Below are positions 4,611 to 47,605 of a stretch of 47,648 bases of DNA, piece by piece. Each line of letters starts with the position of its first letter. Position 1 is the first letter of the stretch. Source of the stretch: Opitutales bacterium. Its GTDB lineage: Bacteria; Verrucomicrobiota; Verrucomicrobiia; Opitutales; T3Sed10-336. Position numbers and translations under genes: made by a program. Where the stretch lies: contig SLTG01000107.1 in assembly GCA_007130045.1 (NCBI GenBank), positions 1 through 47,648 on the forward strand. The letters are read 5' to 3'. The notes beneath the pieces were generated by a model. The model saw nothing but the letters and a program-made list of their open reading frames with translations. It had not been told where the DNA came from and did no database searches.

Positions 4611-5264
4611 TCAGGAGTTTTCAATGCGGCTTCGCGCGGCGCGGAGCATTGTTTCGATCGGATGAGCGAGGCCGTTTTCACTTTCGAAATCCCCGGCCTT
4701 TTCCAGGAGAACGACGGCCCGCTTGAAGTCGGCTTCCTTGATGGCGAAGGCGCCGGCATGGAAATAAACTTCCTGGGCGAACGCCGCATCGAATTCATCG
4801 GGGCTTTCGTCGAGGGCTTCGAGAAGAACGGTGAAATCTCCGGCCGCCAGATCGTAGCGGCCGGCCATGCGGGGGAGGTTGTAAGCGTTTATCGCGCGAA
4901 TCAGTCTGACGCGAGGATTCCCGGGCGCTCGATCCACGGCGGCATCCATTGTTTCGATACCCCGGTTCAGCCATCCGCGCTTCCTCCAAGGGGCGGCGTC
5001 GCGAGCTTTGAGCGTGTACGTGTTTCCCAGGTAGGCGCGGGCCAATTCGTTTTCCGGGTCCTCCTTCAAGAGATCCTCAAGGGCGGAGATCGCACGGTCG
5101 ACTGAATCTCCCGCGCCCTCGATTGCGCGGTCGTGAAGTTCGATGACGCGCTCCGGAACCGTCGATACGGGTTCGCGGGTGTCGCCCGTTTCGGCAATTG
5201 TCGCGAACGGACCGCCGAGCAGGAGGAGACAAAAAACGAAGGAATAACCGGAGTTTCCGCGCAT
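4611..5264 (-). CDS. Exported TPR-like helical-repeat protein
   Basis: The 217-residue product begins with a clear Sec-type signal peptide (hydrophobic core [10 protein letters not shown], cleavage likely around residues 24-28). The rest is alpha-helical with TPR-like spacing: [20 protein letters not shown] followed by AYLGNTY, then a [16 protein letters not shown] unit and a final [15 protein letters not shown] unit. It is probably a periplasmic scaffold or assembly factor, but no specific partner can be named. It is the first gene of a short operon with hpt and diverges from tolC, so the 140 bp between 5265 and 5406 must hold promoters for both directions. I could not pick clear -35/-10 boxes there. 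Confidence 0.7.
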
Positions 5265-5406
5265 GTGACCCCAAGCTTAGACCGGAAACGACCGCGGAAT
5301 CTATAAAAAACGCGGGAGATTGATACAGATCCGGGTTTACATTTCGGCGGGTCTGATTTCAACTTTTCTGATCCCTCGATTGAAATCAATGAGACCGGAA
5401 CAGCTT

Positions 5407-6732
5407 ATGAATGGATTCTTTTCTTTCAAAACCGTTGCCTTTGCTCTTGCAGGGGTAATTGCGGGAGGGTTGATGGCGGAGGAGCCTCCGGTTCGGCTGA
5501 CCCTTGGCGAGGCGTTGAACAGGGTCGAATCCGAGAATCTACGGGTTCTGCTCAACCGGCAGTTTATTGAACAGGCCGTGCAACAGGCGGACCGCGAACG
5601 CTCGTTTCTTTTTCCGCAGGTGAATGTGGAGGCGTCGCAGACGCGGTCGAAGTTTTCCACGGTGGGTCAGGCATTCGGACCGTTGCCACAGAGCACGCGG
5701 AACCGGTTTCAGGCGGTCATCCGGGGCGAGGCGTCGCTGATCGATCCCGCTCTGATCGCGTCCTTCCAGGCTGCGCGGAAGGGCGTTGAGATTTCGGAGG
5801 AGGAGCACAGAGCGCTCGTGCAGGAGGTCCTTCAGACGACCGCGGGGGTTTACCTCGCGCACCAGCGGAATTTGAGGCGTTTCGACGTTATTGAATCCAA
5901 TATCGAGCGGGCGGAGGTTCTGCTTGAACTTGCCCGCACGCAGCTTGATGCGGGTGTCGCGACTGAGATCGACGTCACGCGCGCCCTGGTGACGTTATCG
6001 GAGGAGCGGCAGTCGCGCCTGCAACAGGAAACGGTCGTATTCGAAAGCGCGCTCAACCTCAAACGCCTGCTCGATCTCGATTTGAGAAGGGATATCGAAC
6101 TCGAGCACTTCAGGGCGCACCGGGAAGCGGATTCGGAGGAACCGGATGTCGAGGAGCGGGCGGTTCTTCGCGATCGGCCCGACTACCTGACCGCCGAGCG
6201 GCGTCTCGAGCAGAATAAACTCGAACAACGTGCGGCGGCCTGGGAGCGTTTTCCGACTCTGGTGGCTTTCGGTGATTACGGACGGGCGGCCGAAGTGGCG
6301 TTCGACGACGAAGATCAGGAAATTTGGAGCGCCGGAATCGCGGTCAGTGTTCCGATTTTCGAAGGGTTCAGGATTCGCTCGAACCGAATGCTGGCGAATT
6401 CGCGTCGCCGGGCGACGGAAATCGAGATTCGCGATCTCGAGCGGGAAATTTCGTCCGAGTTGCTATTCGCCTGGCAGGATTTGCGTTCGCGGCTGGCTCA
6501 GATCGAGGTCGCCGAGGAGAACGTGGCGCTTGCGGAAGACGAACTGCGTCTGGCACGGATTCGTTTCGAACAGGGAGTCGCCGACAATCGTGAAGTGATC
6601 GACGCATTGAATCGAGTATCCCAGGCTTCCGACAACCTGGTGGAGGCGTTTTTCGAATACAATCTCACCCGGCTCGAATACGCACGGGTCAGGGGCGACG
6701 TGCGGTTGTTGCTGGGCGACCAGGTGATGTAG
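5407..6732 (+). CDS. TolC-family outer membrane efflux protein
   Basis: The product is about 441 residues from the ATG at 5407, which gives a good signal peptide (MNGFFSFKTVAFALAGVIAG then GLMAEE). An in-frame ATG at 5389 and an earlier start at 5320 would add residues that spoil the leader. The mature protein has two outer-membrane-efflux repeats of long coiled helices (LTLGEALNRVESENLRVLL near the start, and LAEDELRLARIRFEQGV in the second half). TolC-type trimers span the outer membrane and periplasm and work with an inner-membrane pump and adaptor. No adaptor or pump gene is next to it, so it is an orphan channel here. Its end faces the pseudouridine synthase gene. Confidence 0.9.
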   Translation: MNGFFSFKTVAFALAGVIAGGLMAEEPPVRLTLGEALNRVESENLRVLLNRQFIEQAVQQADRERSFLFPQVNVEASQTRSKFSTVGQAFGPLPQSTRNRFQAVIRGEASLIDPALIASFQAARKGVEISEEEHRALVQEVLQTTAGVYLAHQRNLRRFDVIESNIERAEVLLELARTQLDAGVATEIDVTRALVTLSEERQSRLQQETVVFESALNLKRLLDLDLRRDIELEHFRAHREADSEEPDVEERAVLRDRPDYLTAERRLEQNKLEQRAAAWERFPTLVAFGDYGRAAEVAFDDEDQEIWSAGIAVSVPIFEGFRIRSNRMLANSRRRATEIEIRDLEREISSELLFAWQDLRSRLAQIEVAEENVALAEDELRLARIRFEQGVADNREVIDALNRVSQASDNLVEAFFEYNLTRLEYARVRGDVRLLLGDQVM

Positions 6733-34980: not shown

Positions 34981-35108
34981 GTGCGTAGGCGACTCACGCA
35001 GGGGTTCTCGCCGAGACCACCGATCCTCCGCCTTCGCCAAGGCTCGGATGTAACAGGCCGTTCCCCATAGCCATGTGCTCACCGGCCCGCCGTTCCACTG
35101 GAATCCGG

Positions 35109-35180
35109 TGGGTTGGCCGGGACTCGAACCCGGAACCAATTGCTTAAAAGGCAACTGCTCTACCATTGAGCTACCAACCC
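35109..35180 (-). tRNA. tRNA-Lys (anticodon TTT)
   Basis: Read on the minus strand, the gene folds into a full cloverleaf: acceptor stem GGGTTGG/CCAACCC, D-stem GCTC/GAGC, anticodon stem GTTGC/GCAAT with loop CTTTTAA (anticodon TTT), and T-stem CCGGG/CCCGG with loop TTCGAGT. It ends in discriminator A. The genome encodes CCG rather than CCA after it, so CCA is added post-transcriptionally. The AT-rich accessory region begins immediately on its 5' side. Confidence 0.95.
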
Positions 35181-35515: not shown

Positions 35516-36700
35516 TTAACGAGCATTTGCTTTGTTCAGATAATCCAATGCTATCTCTAAATATTCCGCTTCATCGAATTCCTTCCCTGTATTTCTTAAA
35601 AGATTGGCGAACCTTACTTTCGATGCTTCCAAACTTGAAATTTGCTGATGTTCCCATTCTTTGTCGGTAACAAGGTACTGAATCATAAACTCATAGGCCT
35701 TTTTTATACTGCCTCCATCAGGCGACTCGTAATTCCACAAATCGACATTCACTTTTTTACCCAGCACCGCAAGTCTTGTAAAAGCGGCTAAATTAGTTAT
35801 CGAATATGAATGTGATCTGGTACGGTGTAATTCATGAGGTTGGCTTCCGTCGGGTTCTATTTGGCTGTCGATCCTCTCTTTTGAAACGGTTTCCATCAGG
35901 GTCCGTATCTGATCGATCTCTCCCAGGTACAAAAAAATATTGTATAGCTGCACATCGTAGGTCGTACCGTGATTATTGCTTCTGGTGGATTCCAACACGC
36001 CTAACTCACTTGTCTGAAGCCAATTTGAGTATTCAGATAACCACTGTCGTACGCCTTCTTCTGTATCTTCGTCTAATGCGGTTTTATATTTCAGAATCTC
36101 CAAAGTAGAAAGAACATTTCTAATACCACCAAACTCGATTATACCAAATGGGCGTCCCTCGGTATGACCGGGAATACCCTGGCCATAGTTCAGGTGAGGA
36201 TTCATAAGAGTAGCCGAATCTATAAACCATGCCCGAATTAAAGATATCGCCTTATCCGCATACTCTTCCTCTCCGGAAAAAAAAAATGCCTTTCCGAGCA
36301 CATCAACGGCACTAAAAAATCTATTCTTCTCTCTAAAATCAGTATAATCGTCCCTGGTCTCGGGATTCACTCGACCATCTCTACGTATGTACGGCATGCC
36401 GTCCGGTGTGTCGGGGTTCGGCCAGAAAAAGGGAGCCAGAGTCATGTAATCGTGCTTGCTTCCGCTGGGTGGCACCCCGGTTTTATTGGTTACCGAAAAC
36501 GGCCCTTGCGTAAGGGCATTATCCGCGTCCCTTATAAGCCGGTTGAAAAAATTGAGCGCCCCGCTTTCTTGCTGTTCAATTTCGGATTTCAGGGCCTGCA
36601 TTCTATCAAAATCAGTAACCGTCAAACCGTATTGATCACTTTTGATAGTATTGCAACCGAGAAGAGATCCAAAAACAATGATGTATAAAATCGATTTCAT
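35516..36700 (-). CDS. Alginate-lyase-superfamily lipoprotein (paralogue 1)
   Basis: This 394-residue exported lipoprotein has lipobox LLGC with C16 as lipid anchor. The rest is the (alpha/alpha) toroid of the alginate-lyase superfamily (PF05426, PL5/PL38-like). It includes SKHDYMTLAPFFWPNPDTPD at 81-100 and the active-site segment SNNHGTTYDV at 241-250. N243 and H244 are the expected catalytic pair, and Y299 in the RTRSHSYS segment is the expected catalytic tyrosine. The full motif set argues for an active polysaccharide lyase on a uronic-acid polymer such as mannuronan or glucuronan. It is adjacent, in tandem, to a divergent paralogue at 36830-38032. The codon use is AT-rich and unlike the core genes. 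Confidence 0.85.
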   Translation of the reverse strand: MKSILYIIVFGSLLGCNTIKSDQYGLTVTDFDRMQALKSEIEQQESGALNFFNRLIRDADNALTQGPFSVTNKTGVPPSGSKHDYMTLAPFFWPNPDTPDGMPYIRRDGRVNPETRDDYTDFREKNRFFSAVDVLGKAFFFSGEEEYADKAISLIRAWFIDSATLMNPHLNYGQGIPGHTEGRPFGIIEFGGIRNVLSTLEILKYKTALDEDTEEGVRQWLSEYSNWLQTSELGVLESTRSNNHGTTYDVQLYNIFLYLGEIDQIRTLMETVSKERIDSQIEPDGSQPHELHRTRSHSYSITNLAAFTRLAVLGKKVNVDLWNYESPDGGSIKKAYEFMIQYLVTDKEWEHQQISSLEASKVRFANLLRNTGKEFDEAEYLEIALDYLNKANAR

Positions 36701-36829: not shown

Positions 36830-38032
36830 TCAATTCCTGTTCAGATGATTCTGAGCGATCTCAATATACTCCGGTTCATCGAATTCCTTCCCTGCGTGCA
36901 GCAATAAGTTTGCAAATCTCGTTTTCGCTGCTCCGAGGCTTGTTATTTGCTGGTATTCCCATTCTTTATCTGTAGCAATATAGGGTATAAGGAATTCGTA
37001 GGCTTTTTTTATACTTCGCCCATCAGACGACTCGAAATTCCAAAGATCAACGTCATACTTCTTTCCAAAAGAGGCCAGCCTGGTTAAATACCGAAGGTTG
37101 CCTGTTGAGTAAGTAAATGATTTTGTTCTTGCCAGTTCACGCGGCATTTTCCCATCAGGTTCAATGTGTTTTGCTATACGCTTCTCGCGGGCGTCATTCA
37201 ATATTTCTTTTACTTCATCTATTCTTTCCAAATAGATCAAAATATTGATACGTTTTACATCACACATTGTTCCAATGTTATTATGTAAATCATTTATAGC
37301 TCTTAGACCGACTTCACTGGTCTGATACCACAAGAGATAATCAGTTAACCATGTTTTAAAGCCTATTTCCGATTCATAGGGTAAGGCACCCCCTTTTTTC
37401 AAGAGCCTGACCGAGGTAATCATCGATCCTCCTATTCCGCCCATTTCAATAGTTCCGGCAGGCCGACCATTCGATAAACCGGGAATTGCTTGCGCAAAAT
37501 CGTGGTTTGGATTCATTCTCGTTTCAGGATTGATAAACCAGTTTTCAAGCAGTTGAACGGCCTTTTCTGCATATATTTTGTCGCCTGAATAGAAATAAGC
37601 TCTCGACAAATCACTTATCGCACGAAAACATTCTCTCATTTCCAAAAAATCGGTATAATCACCACGGGTTTCCGGATTCACTTGTCCGTCTTTTCGAATC
37701 CACGGTAGCCCGTCAGGGCTATCTGGGTCAGGCCACCAATACGGAGCCAGGCTCAAATAATCATGTTTATCGCCACTTGCCGCCACCCCCTTTTTGTTCA
37801 TCACGGAATACGGGCCCTCTGAAAGGGCTCGATCTGCTCTGTCAATCAATCGGTGGTATTCCGCCAGGGCACTTTCCTCCTCTTCAGCAATGCGATTCCT
37901 TAATTCCAGCATTGATGATAACCCGGCAATCGATGATTCATCGGGATTATTCTGTTTAGTTTTACAAGCTGATAACAAGGCAGCAGAGGCCATTGCTATT
38001 ATCAAGATTATTGTATTTGTTGGTTTGTGCAT
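36830..38032 (-). CDS. Alginate-lyase-superfamily lipoprotein (paralogue 2, altered site)
   Basis: This 400-residue lipoprotein has lipobox LSAC at C23 and aligns with paralogue 1 over its whole length (DKHDYLSLAPYWWPDPDSPD matches the earlier family block). The active-site segment reads HNNIGTMCDV where paralogue 1 has SNNHGTTYDV: the histidine is replaced by isoleucine (I253) and the following tyrosine by cysteine (C257). The later tyrosine Y308 in ARTKSFTYST is kept. In alginate lyase A1-III the corresponding histidine and tyrosine act in catalysis, so this copy may be inactive, may use a changed mechanism, or may bind substrate only. The tandem placement suggests duplication followed by divergence. 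Confidence 0.83.
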   Translation of the reverse strand: MHKPTNTIILIIAMASAALLSACKTKQNNPDESSIAGLSSMLELRNRIAEEEESALAEYHRLIDRADRALSEGPYSVMNKKGVAASGDKHDYLSLAPYWWPDPDSPDGLPWIRKDGQVNPETRGDYTDFLEMRECFRAISDLSRAYFYSGDKIYAEKAVQLLENWFINPETRMNPNHDFAQAIPGLSNGRPAGTIEMGGIGGSMITSVRLLKKGGALPYESEIGFKTWLTDYLLWYQTSEVGLRAINDLHNNIGTMCDVKRINILIYLERIDEVKEILNDAREKRIAKHIEPDGKMPRELARTKSFTYSTGNLRYLTRLASFGKKYDVDLWNFESSDGRSIKKAYEFLIPYIATDKEWEYQQITSLGAAKTRFANLLLHAGKEFDEPEYIEIAQNHLNRN

Positions 38033-43120: not shown

Positions 43121-45241
43121 TTAATCCTTTCTGGAAATTTCGATATCTTGTCTCACATACCCTGTTGTTTTCACCCAATCGACATTCCCTACACGATTGG
43201 TCCATAGTGGATTCTTGTTTTGCTTAAGAGCGGAATAGGTGAAAGCCTCCCAGCAGGCAAGTGCCAAAGAAAGTTCCTCAACTGCTGTAGTCTGATACTC
43301 TTTGTCTTTGGTTTCCCGGTAAAGCGCAACATAGGTTGAACCCGCAATTTTGTGGGCATAATATTTTCCAAGATGGGCCATTGTTTCAATATCATGCAAG
43401 GTGACCTTCAGCTCGCGGTTTTTACCGGCTTTCATTGTTTTCAACAACTCAAATACCGTATCGGCCCGAGCATTTAGTTGGCTTGTAACATCGAACGGAC
43501 CTGAAAGAGATGAACTTTCACCGGAAACAACCATTTCCACATATTCGGGAATGGTCATGCAGCCGGAGTAGGCATGAACCGGATAATTGATAAACGTATT
43601 GACATCATGAAATCCCGTTTCATTGCCTGCAGGCCCCGGTCGGCCTCTACACCCTTCAATGAACCAAAACACGTCGATGCGCCCCCAGTGAAATGCAGTA
43701 GTAGTGGGATAAATCATGGATGCAGTCTGCCACACCTTGAAGAGAGTTTCAGCATCCACTTCCGGATAGCGATATTGCAGCATAGCGATCAACCGTTCAT
43801 TGGAAAGTTCCGGGTTATATCCGAACCTGCCCCACATCATCCAGTGGTACCAATGTTTTACGATTTCTATTTGACGAGGGTCCTCGGCTTGTTTCGATAA
43901 AAATTCTCTGCCCCATATATAGTTGTCGGAGCCATAATAAAAACCTAGGGTTGATTCGTAAGGAACATTATCAATAAACTCACGCACAAAATCGGGGGCG
44001 CCCCAGCGAAAAAAATAGTTATCGTCGTTGCGCATGGTCCACATGGTTTTCATACCCTCTATGTCTTTCACGAAATCATCAACATGGGGCTGTTTCGTAA
44101 CGCTCATAACATGTGCCTGGGCGTATTTAAAACTGAAAACGAAATCAATATTATCTACTTCGTTCAGAGGTTGAAATCTATTCGCGATTTCCTTTGCCCC
44201 TGTTTGATGCCGCCGATGAATAAACAAAAAGTTCCTGTCAGGCATATCTCTCGCGGCATCCAGCATGCCCTGCCCGTAAGTGTCGAAAATCCATTCTTCC
44301 CGGTCCATGATTGGAATCCCATGCATGTTCTCGCCGGTAGTGATCCCAATTCCCGCCAAAAGGGGATAGGTAACAAACATCTGCTTCACGCTTTCACGGA
44401 AATAATCGCGGGTTACCGGGTTGTCGATTTGGTCGGTGATGCCATATTTGCCTTCGGTGCCATTGACAAGGATATTCCAGGTTACAATATAAAACCGAAT
44501 GTTGCGATCATTGGCATACGCCATTACCTTTTGCCAGAATTCGATTTTTTCTTCGATGGATATTTCCTGCAATACCTCGGTTTGAGCCAAAATTTCAGGT
44601 TTATCAAATTCGATTGCCCATGGGTGATAATATTCGTCCCATACCCCTGTTGATCGCAAAACATCATCCAATGCCACATCAGGATAGTGAGGAACCTTCA
44701 CCATTGAAGGGAAGGGGTGCAGGTTCCACAAAGATATGAAATTATACCTGTATCGGGCAAGGTTGTCAATGTATTCGGTCCAGAAATCAAAATTCCACAT
44801 CTCGGGCATGTTTTTCTGCGCAGCGTCACTAGCATCGGAATAACTGGGAGTTCTTACATCAAGAGGGATATTAAATTTTGTTCCACGCAATTTAGTATAA
44901 GGATTCTGGCTTGTTTTCATAACGCCATCCATCCCGAAAAGCATAATCTGTTCGGCCAGTTCCAGTCCGCCATACATCGCGCCCGCCGCATCAAAGCCGG
45001 TCACTGTAATTTGTTTGCCGATTCTTTCAATAACAAACCCCTCTGATTTCAGCACTGCTGCATCCGGGTCAATGGCAATAATCAGATCGGATTCATCACG
45101 TTCACCGAATTCTATATAAAACCCGTTTTCATCAAGCACTCTTTTCAGCTCATCCACTGCGAACTGAATTTTCGGGTTGTCATCCTGCATGTACAAGATA
45201 ATTGCATTTTGACCACTGTTGCACCCTGTTACAAGTGTCAT
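43121..45241 (-). CDS. Glycosidase-like protein (GH67/GH115 N-domain type)
   Basis: The product is about 706 residues. The N-terminal 110 residues resemble the alpha-glucuronidase N-terminal domain (FAVDELKRVLDENGF, then GFVIERIGKQITVTGFDAA). A barrel-like region follows, with segments WNLHPFPSMVKVPHYPD, LAGIGITTGENMHG and FHWGRIDVFWFIEGCRG. Alpha-glucuronidases of families 67 and 115 remove glucuronic acid side groups from xylan-type or related polymers; the match is only to the general fold, so activity is not claimed. The start is odd: residues 1-7 are MTLVTGC, a lipobox-like cysteine with almost no leader, and an in-frame stop lies 10 codons upstream of the ATG. The leader may be damaged, or a non-ATG start may be used. 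Confidence 0.6.
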   Translation of the reverse strand: MTLVTGCNSGQNAIILYMQDDNPKIQFAVDELKRVLDENGFYIEFGERDESDLIIAIDPDAAVLKSEGFVIERIGKQITVTGFDAAGAMYGGLELAEQIMLFGMDGVMKTSQNPYTKLRGTKFNIPLDVRTPSYSDASDAAQKNMPEMWNFDFWTEYIDNLARYRYNFISLWNLHPFPSMVKVPHYPDVALDDVLRSTGVWDEYYHPWAIEFDKPEILAQTEVLQEISIEEKIEFWQKVMAYANDRNIRFYIVTWNILVNGTEGKYGITDQIDNPVTRDYFRESVKQMFVTYPLLAGIGITTGENMHGIPIMDREEWIFDTYGQGMLDAARDMPDRNFLFIHRRHQTGAKEIANRFQPLNEVDNIDFVFSFKYAQAHVMSVTKQPHVDDFVKDIEGMKTMWTMRNDDNYFFRWGAPDFVREFIDNVPYESTLGFYYGSDNYIWGREFLSKQAEDPRQIEIVKHWYHWMMWGRFGYNPELSNERLIAMLQYRYPEVDAETLFKVWQTASMIYPTTTAFHWGRIDVFWFIEGCRGRPGPAGNETGFHDVNTFINYPVHAYSGCMTIPEYVEMVVSGESSSLSGPFDVTSQLNARADTVFELLKTMKAGKNRELKVTLHDIETMAHLGKYYAHKIAGSTYVALYRETKDKEYQTTAVEELSLALACWEAFTYSALKQNKNPLWTNRVGNVDWVKTTGYVRQDIEISRKD

Positions 45242-45374
45242 CCTGAATAAAAAGCTACCGGGCTGTTAAATGCCCAGTGGCCTGTTTTCTTGCATATATG
45301 CTTGATTTTTATTTATAAAGAATTCCTGTGAGATCTTGCGCAAAACGCGCGGGATTTCCGCTTAACGAATAAGA

Positions 45375-45509
45375 ATGTGGAAATTTAGTTTGTGGCTTTA
45401 TTTCACTGCTTCAAAGCAGCTTACTGATTTGCTCGAGCAAAGATTGTGTGATCGGAGTTGCTCAACCGCTCTTGACGAAATAATGGCGGAGTTATGTCCC
45501 GACGATTGA
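45375..45509 (+). CDS. Possible small open frame (44 codons)
   Basis: An ATG at 45375 opens a 44-residue frame with text MWKFSLWLYFTASKQLTDLL that then carries on to DEIMAELCPDD. It is leucine- and acid-rich and helical in look, with four cysteines, and matches no family I recognise. It has only a weak upstream purine stretch. It lies in the 409-bp gap between the two glycosidase-type genes, and the rest of that gap (45242-45374, 45510-45650) shows no other gene. It is reported as a possible small gene, not a secure one. Confidence 0.2.
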   Translation: MWKFSLWLYFTASKQLTDLLEQRLCDRSCSTALDEIMAELCPDD

Positions 45510-45650
45510 AGCCCTATTCAAAAAAACCCTCGGTTTCGCGAAGTAAAACCTTCCCAACCCGGTGCGTACAGGGAACTCGGAAAACACCGGGAACATCCCA
45601 ATTCAAAACCAGCTTTTGCTAACGGTTCCACCGGGTTGGGTTATGTTAAA

Positions 45651-47171
45651 TCATTCATTTAAAACCGTAATAGCACCGGCCCATCCATATTCAGCCTGAT
45701 GGGGAGTTTCTATGGATATGACATCGCCACCACGGATTTCTGATTCCAATACAACCTGACCCTTCCCTATATCAATCCATTGTATTTTAAAGGGTTTTTC
45801 AGAATTGCGTAAATCAAGTCCTGCCGATCCGGTACCTTTCGGGAAATACAGGCCATACATATAACCTTCCTTTGCCATAAGATAGGCTTCATCCTTATCT
45901 CTGTCTGATAGCAAATCCTGTCGGGGCGCAGATTCCCAAGGGGTAATAAGGTCCGTGAAAATCCGCATGGACTGTATGTTGGTTTTTGCCAACTCAGTCA
46001 TTGCAAGCCCCCCAATTGGCCAGCCATCGCGAGTTGTACCCTCAAGATAGGCCCGGTGGTGACTCAATGCCGCAAATCCTGCCATAAGCAGTCTCCACAA
46101 TCTTTCCTGAGCGTTATAAGTGATATTCTGTGTTCTCACTTTGACTGCGTTTACAGGTCGCCTTTCAACTTCGGCGGTATTTCTTATAAGGTCAATAGCC
46201 GCATCGTATTGAGTTTCACCAGGATCTGTCCACTGTGAACCAAGTTTGGAGCCTTCAATAAAAGTGTAGAGATCATTTCTTTCTATGACAGGCGGAAAGC
46301 CTTCAACAGGAACCCAGTTGCCATCCCTTTGTATGACATGGTCGAACATTGCAGTGGTTTCTATTTTATGTCCTTTCGTCGATGCATAAGCACGAACAAA
46401 TTGACCCCAATACATGTCCCAGTCTTTTAGGTCAAGCTGATGTTCATTCCCCATGTTGTAGATCACATTGCCGTATTCCATACTCACATCCAATATCTTC
46501 TCAACAAATCTCTCTTGAAAATGAAGCACCACAGGGAGGTCCTCCATCATTGGGGGTGTCTGGTGAAAGGGATTGATACCTGTAATCGGATGACCAACAT
46601 ACGCTGATTCAAGCCCCGATTCTTCGATAGTATAGTTTACATTGTTGACCGGGTTCCATGGGCTGTTTTTCCACAAGACTTCTCTTGTTTCATCTCTATG
46701 GCCTACCTGATCATAATGATCGAATCTGTCCCAAAACGTTAAATTCACAATCATATCACGTTCAGACGACCACTTTAGCATGTTTCTTAGTCCATCCCAG
46801 TAGTCTTCATTCCATTGGGTCAAATCATACTTGCCGTTATCCAATCTCTTAAACGCCCTGATATTTCCCGGTTCACGATCGGACATTATATTGCGAAAAT
46901 AATTTCCCCCGGATGATTCCAGTTCGTCGAGGTAGTTTATCAGCTGATGTCGTTCCATCTGAAACGGGTTAACAACCTTGTTGCCACCTAATAAGTAGAC
47001 CGGCTTTCCTTGATATTGCCAATAACTGTTATTCTCATCATATGGCTTGATTCTGTTTTTCTCAAAATCAGGATCAGATCCAAAGGATGTCGAAATCATC
47101 AGAAGCCAAACCGGGGCTAATAAGAATATGCAATGGCTTCTGATAGTTGTTTTGCCCGAATTATTATACAT
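45651..47171 (-). CDS. Secreted clan GH-A-like glycosidase (DUF4038/apiosidase-like)
   Basis: From the ATG at 47171 the product is about 506 residues with a Sec signal peptide (core CIFLLAPVWLLMISTSFG, cleavage near residue 32). The following domain resembles the DUF4038/GH140 apiosidase-like barrel: YWQYQGKPVYLLGGNKVVNP and LNYLDEL-like helices (in the window NYLDELESSGGNYFRNIMSD), then a catalytic-type NMGNEHQ with E243 and a second acidic residue E306 in LYTFIEGSKLG. A C-terminal beta-sandwich of about 90 residues (EKPFKIQWIDIGKGQVVLES) fits the putative collagen-binding domain that usually follows. GH140 removes apiose-linked side chains of rhamnogalacturonan-II, but related proteins have other targets. 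Earlier in-frame ATGs add an Arg-rich leader and are rejected. Confidence 0.72.
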   Translation of the reverse strand: MYNNSGKTTIRSHCIFLLAPVWLLMISTSFGSDPDFEKNRIKPYDENNSYWQYQGKPVYLLGGNKVVNPFQMERHQLINYLDELESSGGNYFRNIMSDREPGNIRAFKRLDNGKYDLTQWNEDYWDGLRNMLKWSSERDMIVNLTFWDRFDHYDQVGHRDETREVLWKNSPWNPVNNVNYTIEESGLESAYVGHPITGINPFHQTPPMMEDLPVVLHFQERFVEKILDVSMEYGNVIYNMGNEHQLDLKDWDMYWGQFVRAYASTKGHKIETTAMFDHVIQRDGNWVPVEGFPPVIERNDLYTFIEGSKLGSQWTDPGETQYDAAIDLIRNTAEVERRPVNAVKVRTQNITYNAQERLWRLLMAGFAALSHHRAYLEGTTRDGWPIGGLAMTELAKTNIQSMRIFTDLITPWESAPRQDLLSDRDKDEAYLMAKEGYMYGLYFPKGTGSAGLDLRNSEKPFKIQWIDIGKGQVVLESEIRGGDVISIETPHQAEYGWAGAITVLNE

Positions 47172-47350
47172 TTCTGTTCTACCTTTAATGATGGTTGGAC
47201 TATTAAGCTTCATTCCGCGACGATAGCGTGGCATGAAGCGGTTCTGGCGAAGAATGCATCTACGGACCCGGAAAGTCAAGGGTGTGTCCCGGGAACGGCT
47301 GACCTTCGAGAGCGGAGGGGCGTATCCGGCGGCGGAAACCGAGCGGAGGA

Positions 47351-47605
<255 letters not shown>

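Follow-up and report, generated by a model that had tools for sequence, protein, structure and literature searches.

Isoleucine in place of the catalytic histidine in a PL38-like lipoprotein encoded beside a histidine-bearing paralogue

Introduction

Among the closest known relatives of the proteins described here is BoPL38 of Bacteroides ovatus CP926, a PL38 lyase of known structure (PDB 8bdq, 9fht-9fi6). Crystallography together with simulation has assigned the roles of a tyrosine and a histidine that allow two stereochemical modes in a single active site; beta-D-mannuronate undergoes syn elimination with Tyr298 as base, and alpha-L-guluronate anti elimination with His243 as base (PMC13169297). 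That paper cites, by title, a mechanistic study of a gut-microbiota lyase/epimerase of mixed function. We take this to mean BoPL38, and from the title we infer that BoPL38 is a lyase/epimerase.

The same division of labour has been proposed for the PL5 enzyme Smlt1473, in which Tyr222 is the base on ManA and His168 serves as base only when the C5-H lies on the other face. The Smlt1473 histidine also hydrogen-bonds the +1 sugar, and H168A, used with hyaluronan, is called an inactive mutant (PMC8511899). A second PL5 enzyme, A1-III, was crystallised as the H192A variant with a tetrasaccharide, according to the PDB entry title. Taken together, these two cases indicate that loss of the histidine can stop syn elimination too. 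The PL35 GAGases II, III and VII point the other way: a His or Asn beside the neutralising Asn separates alginate from GAG activity, His-less mutants still cut GAGs, and in GAGase III a change of His188 abolishes activity on alginate, whereas activity on GAGs is just partly affected (PMC12088678). Within PL38 itself, members active on glucuronan and on hyaluronan/chondroitin have been published (PMC9029943, PMC13027841).

Here we describe two neighbouring genes of an Opitutales bacterium. The window, that is the whole stretch of DNA analysed, comprises 47,648 nucleotides. One of the two encoded proteins, P2, carries isoleucine where the family has its catalytic histidine; the other, P1, keeps it.

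Results and Discussion

A tandem pair of PL38-like lipoproteins

36830..38032, minus strand: P2, PL38/PF05426 lyase-like lipoprotein of 400 aa, lacking the catalytic His
35516..36700, minus strand: P1, PL38/PF05426 lyase-like lipoprotein of 394 aa, His kept

The genes lie in tandem, P2 upstream, with a gap of 129 bases, and both open reading frames are intact. Aligned by BLASTP, the proteins are 50% identical across 377 positions, with their motifs in register. Reading of the sequences reveals a lipoprotein-like signal at the start of each protein, with LLSAC in P2 and LLGC in P1; P2 is probably secreted and lipid-anchored. Both match PF05426 over the full length (P2, 2.5e-71 and 240.8 bits; P1, 1.8e-78 and 264.2 bits; cut-off 22.2), and scores against the NCBIfam mannuronate lyase models are far below cut-off.

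AlphaFold2 models of P2 and P1 (pLDDT 93.4 and 93.5) both show the (alpha/alpha) barrel fold of BoPL38. Compared with solved structures, the P2 model best matches 3nnb (Z 45.8) and superposes on BoPL38 8bdq with Z 40.4 and rmsd 2.8 over 365 residues; the P1 model gives Z 45.6 and 40.7, respectively. BACOVA_01668 (PDB 3nfv/3nnb), which is annotated as an alginate lyase, is the closest solved relative of the pair, at 35-37% identity and a Z of about 45.5; unlike P2, it has the canonical motif NNHGLAYDV. Enzymes of PL5, PL17, PL33 and PL35 match the P2 model with Z 18-21, far under the PL38 matches. Within PL5, A1-III and Smlt1473 share the barrel at a distance (Z about 18-21) and have an Asn-His pair and a Tyr in their site; they share 11-15% identity with P2, and A1-III-type structures reach a Z of about 21 at 13-14% identity, PL38 being nearer. 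The PL35 GAGases belong to another family; they carry an additional beta domain at the C-terminus, and their second catalytic His has no counterpart in P2. By sequence and by fold, P1 and P2 are closest to PL38 lyases.

The histidine is replaced in P2

37256..37285, minus strand: P2 motif HNNIGTMCDV, residues 250-259
35951-35980, minus strand: P1 motif SNNHGTTYDV, residues 241-250
37274..37276, minus strand: P2 Ile253, codon ATT, replacing BoPL38 His243
35969..35971, minus strand: P1 His244, codon CAC, equivalent to BoPL38 H243, kept
37262..37264, minus strand: P2 Cys257, codon TGT, replacing Tyr, at i+4 in the same helix (252-267) as Ile253

The initial annotation had reported Ile for His and Cys for a nearby Tyr in P2, with the later catalytic Tyr retained. 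Each of these is confirmed, the retained tyrosine being Y299 in P1 and Y308 in P2. The interval first given for the change, 37261-37380, spans P2 residues 218-258; it contains both the Ile and the Cys and misses the last residue of the motif. The changed residue was also correctly identified as the counterpart of a catalytic His; in PL38 itself this is H243 of BoPL38, His192 of A1-III in PL5 being a more distant equivalent. A one-base sequencing error is ruled out as the source of the change, as at least two base changes separate a His codon from ATT (the P1 codon is CAC).

To place the change in the family, relatives were gathered from named genomes and from the order, phylum and class of the window, giving 119 different full-length rows. 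At the column of the catalytic His, 109 rows have His, 6 Gln, 3 Ile and 1 Leu. Near-invariant columns, defined as those in which at least 90% of rows agree, number 36, and P2 departs at two of them, His253Ile and Gln289His. Given this conservation, Ile253 is more than a chance difference. Judged from sequence and predicted fold, P2 is a member of the family, yet the BoPL38 mechanism with its two bases cannot hold for it unaltered: of the two proton-handling residues of a BoPL38-type lyase/epimerase, Tyr and His, P2 retains the Tyr alone.

The rest of the active site

37739..37741, minus strand: P2 Tyr98, equivalent to BoPL38 Y91, kept
37277..37279, minus strand: P2 Asn252, equivalent to BoPL38 N242, kept (119/119)
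37127..37129, minus strand: P2 Arg302, equivalent to BoPL38 R292, kept
37109..37111, minus strand: P2 Tyr308, equivalent to BoPL38 catalytic Y298, kept
37166..37168, minus strand: P2 His289, at a column with Gln in 110 of the 119 rows
36428..36430, minus strand: P1 Phe91, codon TTT, replacing BoPL38 Tyr91

The PDB entry titles of BoPL38 include the mutants Y91F, D108N, Q173N, N242A, H297N and Y298F, and these sites were placed on the family alignment through printed BoPL38 alignments. Their equivalents in P2 are Y98, D115, Q181, N252, T307 and Y308. P2 is wild-type at every one of them except H297, a position that varies across the family, and R302 is a further active-site residue that is kept. 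Thus, at about 28% identity, P2 resembles BoPL38 in its fold and in the equivalents of Tyr, Asn, Arg, Gln, Asp and Tyr91, and differs from it in lacking that of His243. P1 has the catalytic residues Y299 (Y298 in BoPL38), N243 (N242) and His244 (H243), yet lacks the Tyr91 hydroxyl: the Tyr91 column has Tyr in 117 of the 118 rows with a letter there, P1 with its Phe being the sole exception. On the alignment, then, P1 and P2 each bear one rare change at a site highlighted by the BoPL38 structural work. A simple active/altered pair finds no support in this comparison: with Phe91 in P1 and Ile253 in P2, both copies depart from the family norm.

The kept Tyr, Asn and Arg and the wild-type state of the remaining conserved positions covered by the BoPL38 mutants, together with Ile for His, lead us to favour the reading that P2 is a PL38 lyase working through Tyr alone, which would cut a beta-D-uronate polymer by syn elimination and lack both anti elimination and epimerisation; we give this a probability of about 0.42. 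Of the Tyr and His with which the family handles protons, P2 would have dropped the His and would act through the remaining Tyr308; the kept Asn and Arg are those that face the carboxylate in related enzymes. Beta-D-uronates (glucuronate or mannuronate) would still undergo syn elimination, and anti elimination of L-guluronate or L-iduronate would be lost along with any His-dependent C5 epimerisation. Cys in place of Tyr at 257, one helical turn on, could open room near the +1 sugar and might suit a substituted, e.g. sulfated, uronate. P1, with its His and Phe91, and P2 may then split the substrate between them rather than be one active and one dead enzyme. A point against Tyr-only catalysis is that Ile cannot hydrogen-bond the +1 sugar as His does.

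Could P2 instead be a dead pseudo-lyase kept for binding, as a cell-surface binder of polymer or oligosaccharide or as a partner of P1? This is a strong rival reading, and near-complete conservation of the site in P2 would fit binding as well; moreover, the equivalent PL5 His mutant is called inactive and A1-III H192A holds its tetrasaccharide in the crystal. Binding alone, however, needs neither the catalytic Tyr308 nor Asn252, and both are kept in every His-less relative checked. As the PL5 and PL35 reports pull apart for P2, we hold both the Tyr-only lyase and the dead binder tentatively, the lyase being somewhat the likelier.

Histidine loss recurs among relatives

The histidine is missing from ten of the 119 rows: P2, L069 (a Phycisphaerae bacterium; NNIGTWANV), L011 (NNQATMSDV), L063 (NNIDVAYHA), L053 (NNLATYFAG) and five from Mesorhizobium (SNQG). 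Across the whole alignment the Asn252 column is invariant (119/119), and all rows but one retain the Tyr of column 308 (118 of 119). Six changes on the tree are needed to account for the loss of the His, at least 4 of which are forced by strongly supported branches; the L053 and Mesorhizobium rows are near each other and the other His-less rows are separate. Where the initial annotation had proposed looking for a conserved His-to-Ile clade, we find the His-less rows scattered over about 4-6 lineages with Ile, Gln or Leu. In this alignment, loss of the His is repeated and does not define a single conserved clade. Searches in the class of the window and in the family of L011 turned up no additional row without the His at the loci that were read, and L003, L004 and L005, well-matched PF05426 proteins of the window's own genome, all keep the His.

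The neighbourhoods of two other His-less genes, L069 and L011, were read, and at neither does a second copy adjoin. The constant His-bearing partner that a dead binder might be expected to have is therefore not seen. L069 (5001-6239), with its His-to-Ile change, lies directly after a gene of GH130, the mannooligosaccharide phosphorylase family.

The nearby tyrosine position was compared between the two groups as well. Column 257 holds Tyr, Phe, Trp, Cys or His where the catalytic His is present; in three of the six lineages without it, the residue there is Ala, Ser or Cys. Counting lineages, small residues at this column accompany His loss with a raw Fisher p of 0.0026, but a tree-aware test, with only 4 independent pairs on supported branches, is too small to reach significance. 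A compensation common to the His-less lineages was considered and rejected, as P2 shares its rare residues with them no more than with several other rows.

It is conceivable, though we regard it as unlikely, that His-less PL38 proteins are a recurrent functional form, in which several lineages have independently become Tyr-only syn lyases with a +1 subsite opened for decorated glucuronates. P1 and P2 would then be a split pair that shares out the reactions of a two-mode ancestor, the Tyr91 hydroxyl having been lost in P1 and His243 in P2.

Another residue of P2 might also have taken over from the lost base, the candidates being His177, His250, His289 and Lys260. His289 stands at the Gln column noted above, His177 at a column that otherwise has Leu, Phe, Met or Ile, and Lys260 at a mostly Gln column. 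Even so, we consider such a replacement improbable, for His at column 289 or 250 is found in relatives that have the catalytic His (all 5 relatives with His at column 289 retain it), and neither His289 nor His177 is shared by the other His-less lineages. The alignment contains no conserved second His at a replacement position.

In the five Mesorhizobium rows (L113-L117, about 4900-6100), the PL38-like domain is C-terminal in an ORF of 775-800 aa, and its catalytic His is replaced by Gln (SNQG or NNQG); M. amorphae (L112) retains NNHG.

Constraint on P2 and origin of the block

35107..35180, minus strand: tRNA-Lys, bordering the AT-rich block with P1 and P2
35474..35501, minus strand: terminator-like stem-loop just downstream of P1, from a consensus scan only

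The pair occupies a block of about 43% GC flanked by regions of about 58%. In the tree the two proteins cluster with sequences from Bacteroidota and from one genome of the window's class (support 99). The GC contrast, the tRNA-Lys gene and this grouping suggest that the block was acquired from outside. Around 34.9-39.2 kb we found no direct repeats marking an integration site besides the similarity of P1 and P2 itself.

Lying in AT-rich DNA next to a tRNA gene, with a copy that keeps the His as its neighbour, P2 might be a redundant duplicate heading for loss. We find this very improbable given its intact ORF and signal sequence, and its departure at just 2 of 36 near-invariant columns. L069 and L011 likewise show one such departure each, at the His. 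Against five of the six outgroups, Tajima relative-rate tests put the rates of P1 and P2 level (p 0.49-1.0); the exception is L074, with which the P2 count is higher (p 0.016). By these sequence measures P2 is a constrained protein.

A second AT-rich block (43121-47279), on the same strand, ends beside a tRNA-Met gene (47530-47605). It contains a 706-aa ORF with a weak match to the alpha-galacturonidase model NF049878 (99.5 bits, cut-off 1300) and a 542-aa ORF that matches DUF6298 below cut-off.

Substrate

An annotation as alginate lyase based on PF05426 carries little information on substrate or activity, and alginate is without direct support here as substrate of P1 or P2. In the nearest clade, the Bacteroidota genes adjoin genes for a sulfatase, a GH88 unsaturated glucuronyl hydrolase, a heparinase-II/III-like protein and GH2, and the same-class relative G609 adjoins a sulfatase and an alpha-L-rhamnosidase. 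Given this context and the published PL38 specificities, a sulfated glucuronate polymer would be at least as likely a substrate of P2 as alginate.

Unsaturated glucuronate is usually processed next by GH88/GH105 enzymes. The window's own genome yields no match to GH88/GH105, so this step is not evident there, which speaks against a full pathway. The same genome has only one clear heparinase-II/III-like protein, and no PL7 (PF08787) match; the PL7 control was likewise empty, which makes this a weak negative.

Whichever substrate is involved, natural enzymes that lack the His and keep the rest of the site are ready-made tests of the Tyr/His assignment made in BoPL38, and the P1/P2 pair is a good test of lyase function without the catalytic His. 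Two other loci, L041 (286-2658) and L127 (346-2685), are single ORFs with two tandem PF05426-type domains each; the two domains of L041 come from different major branches of the tree, and the protein resembles a fused two-enzyme pair.
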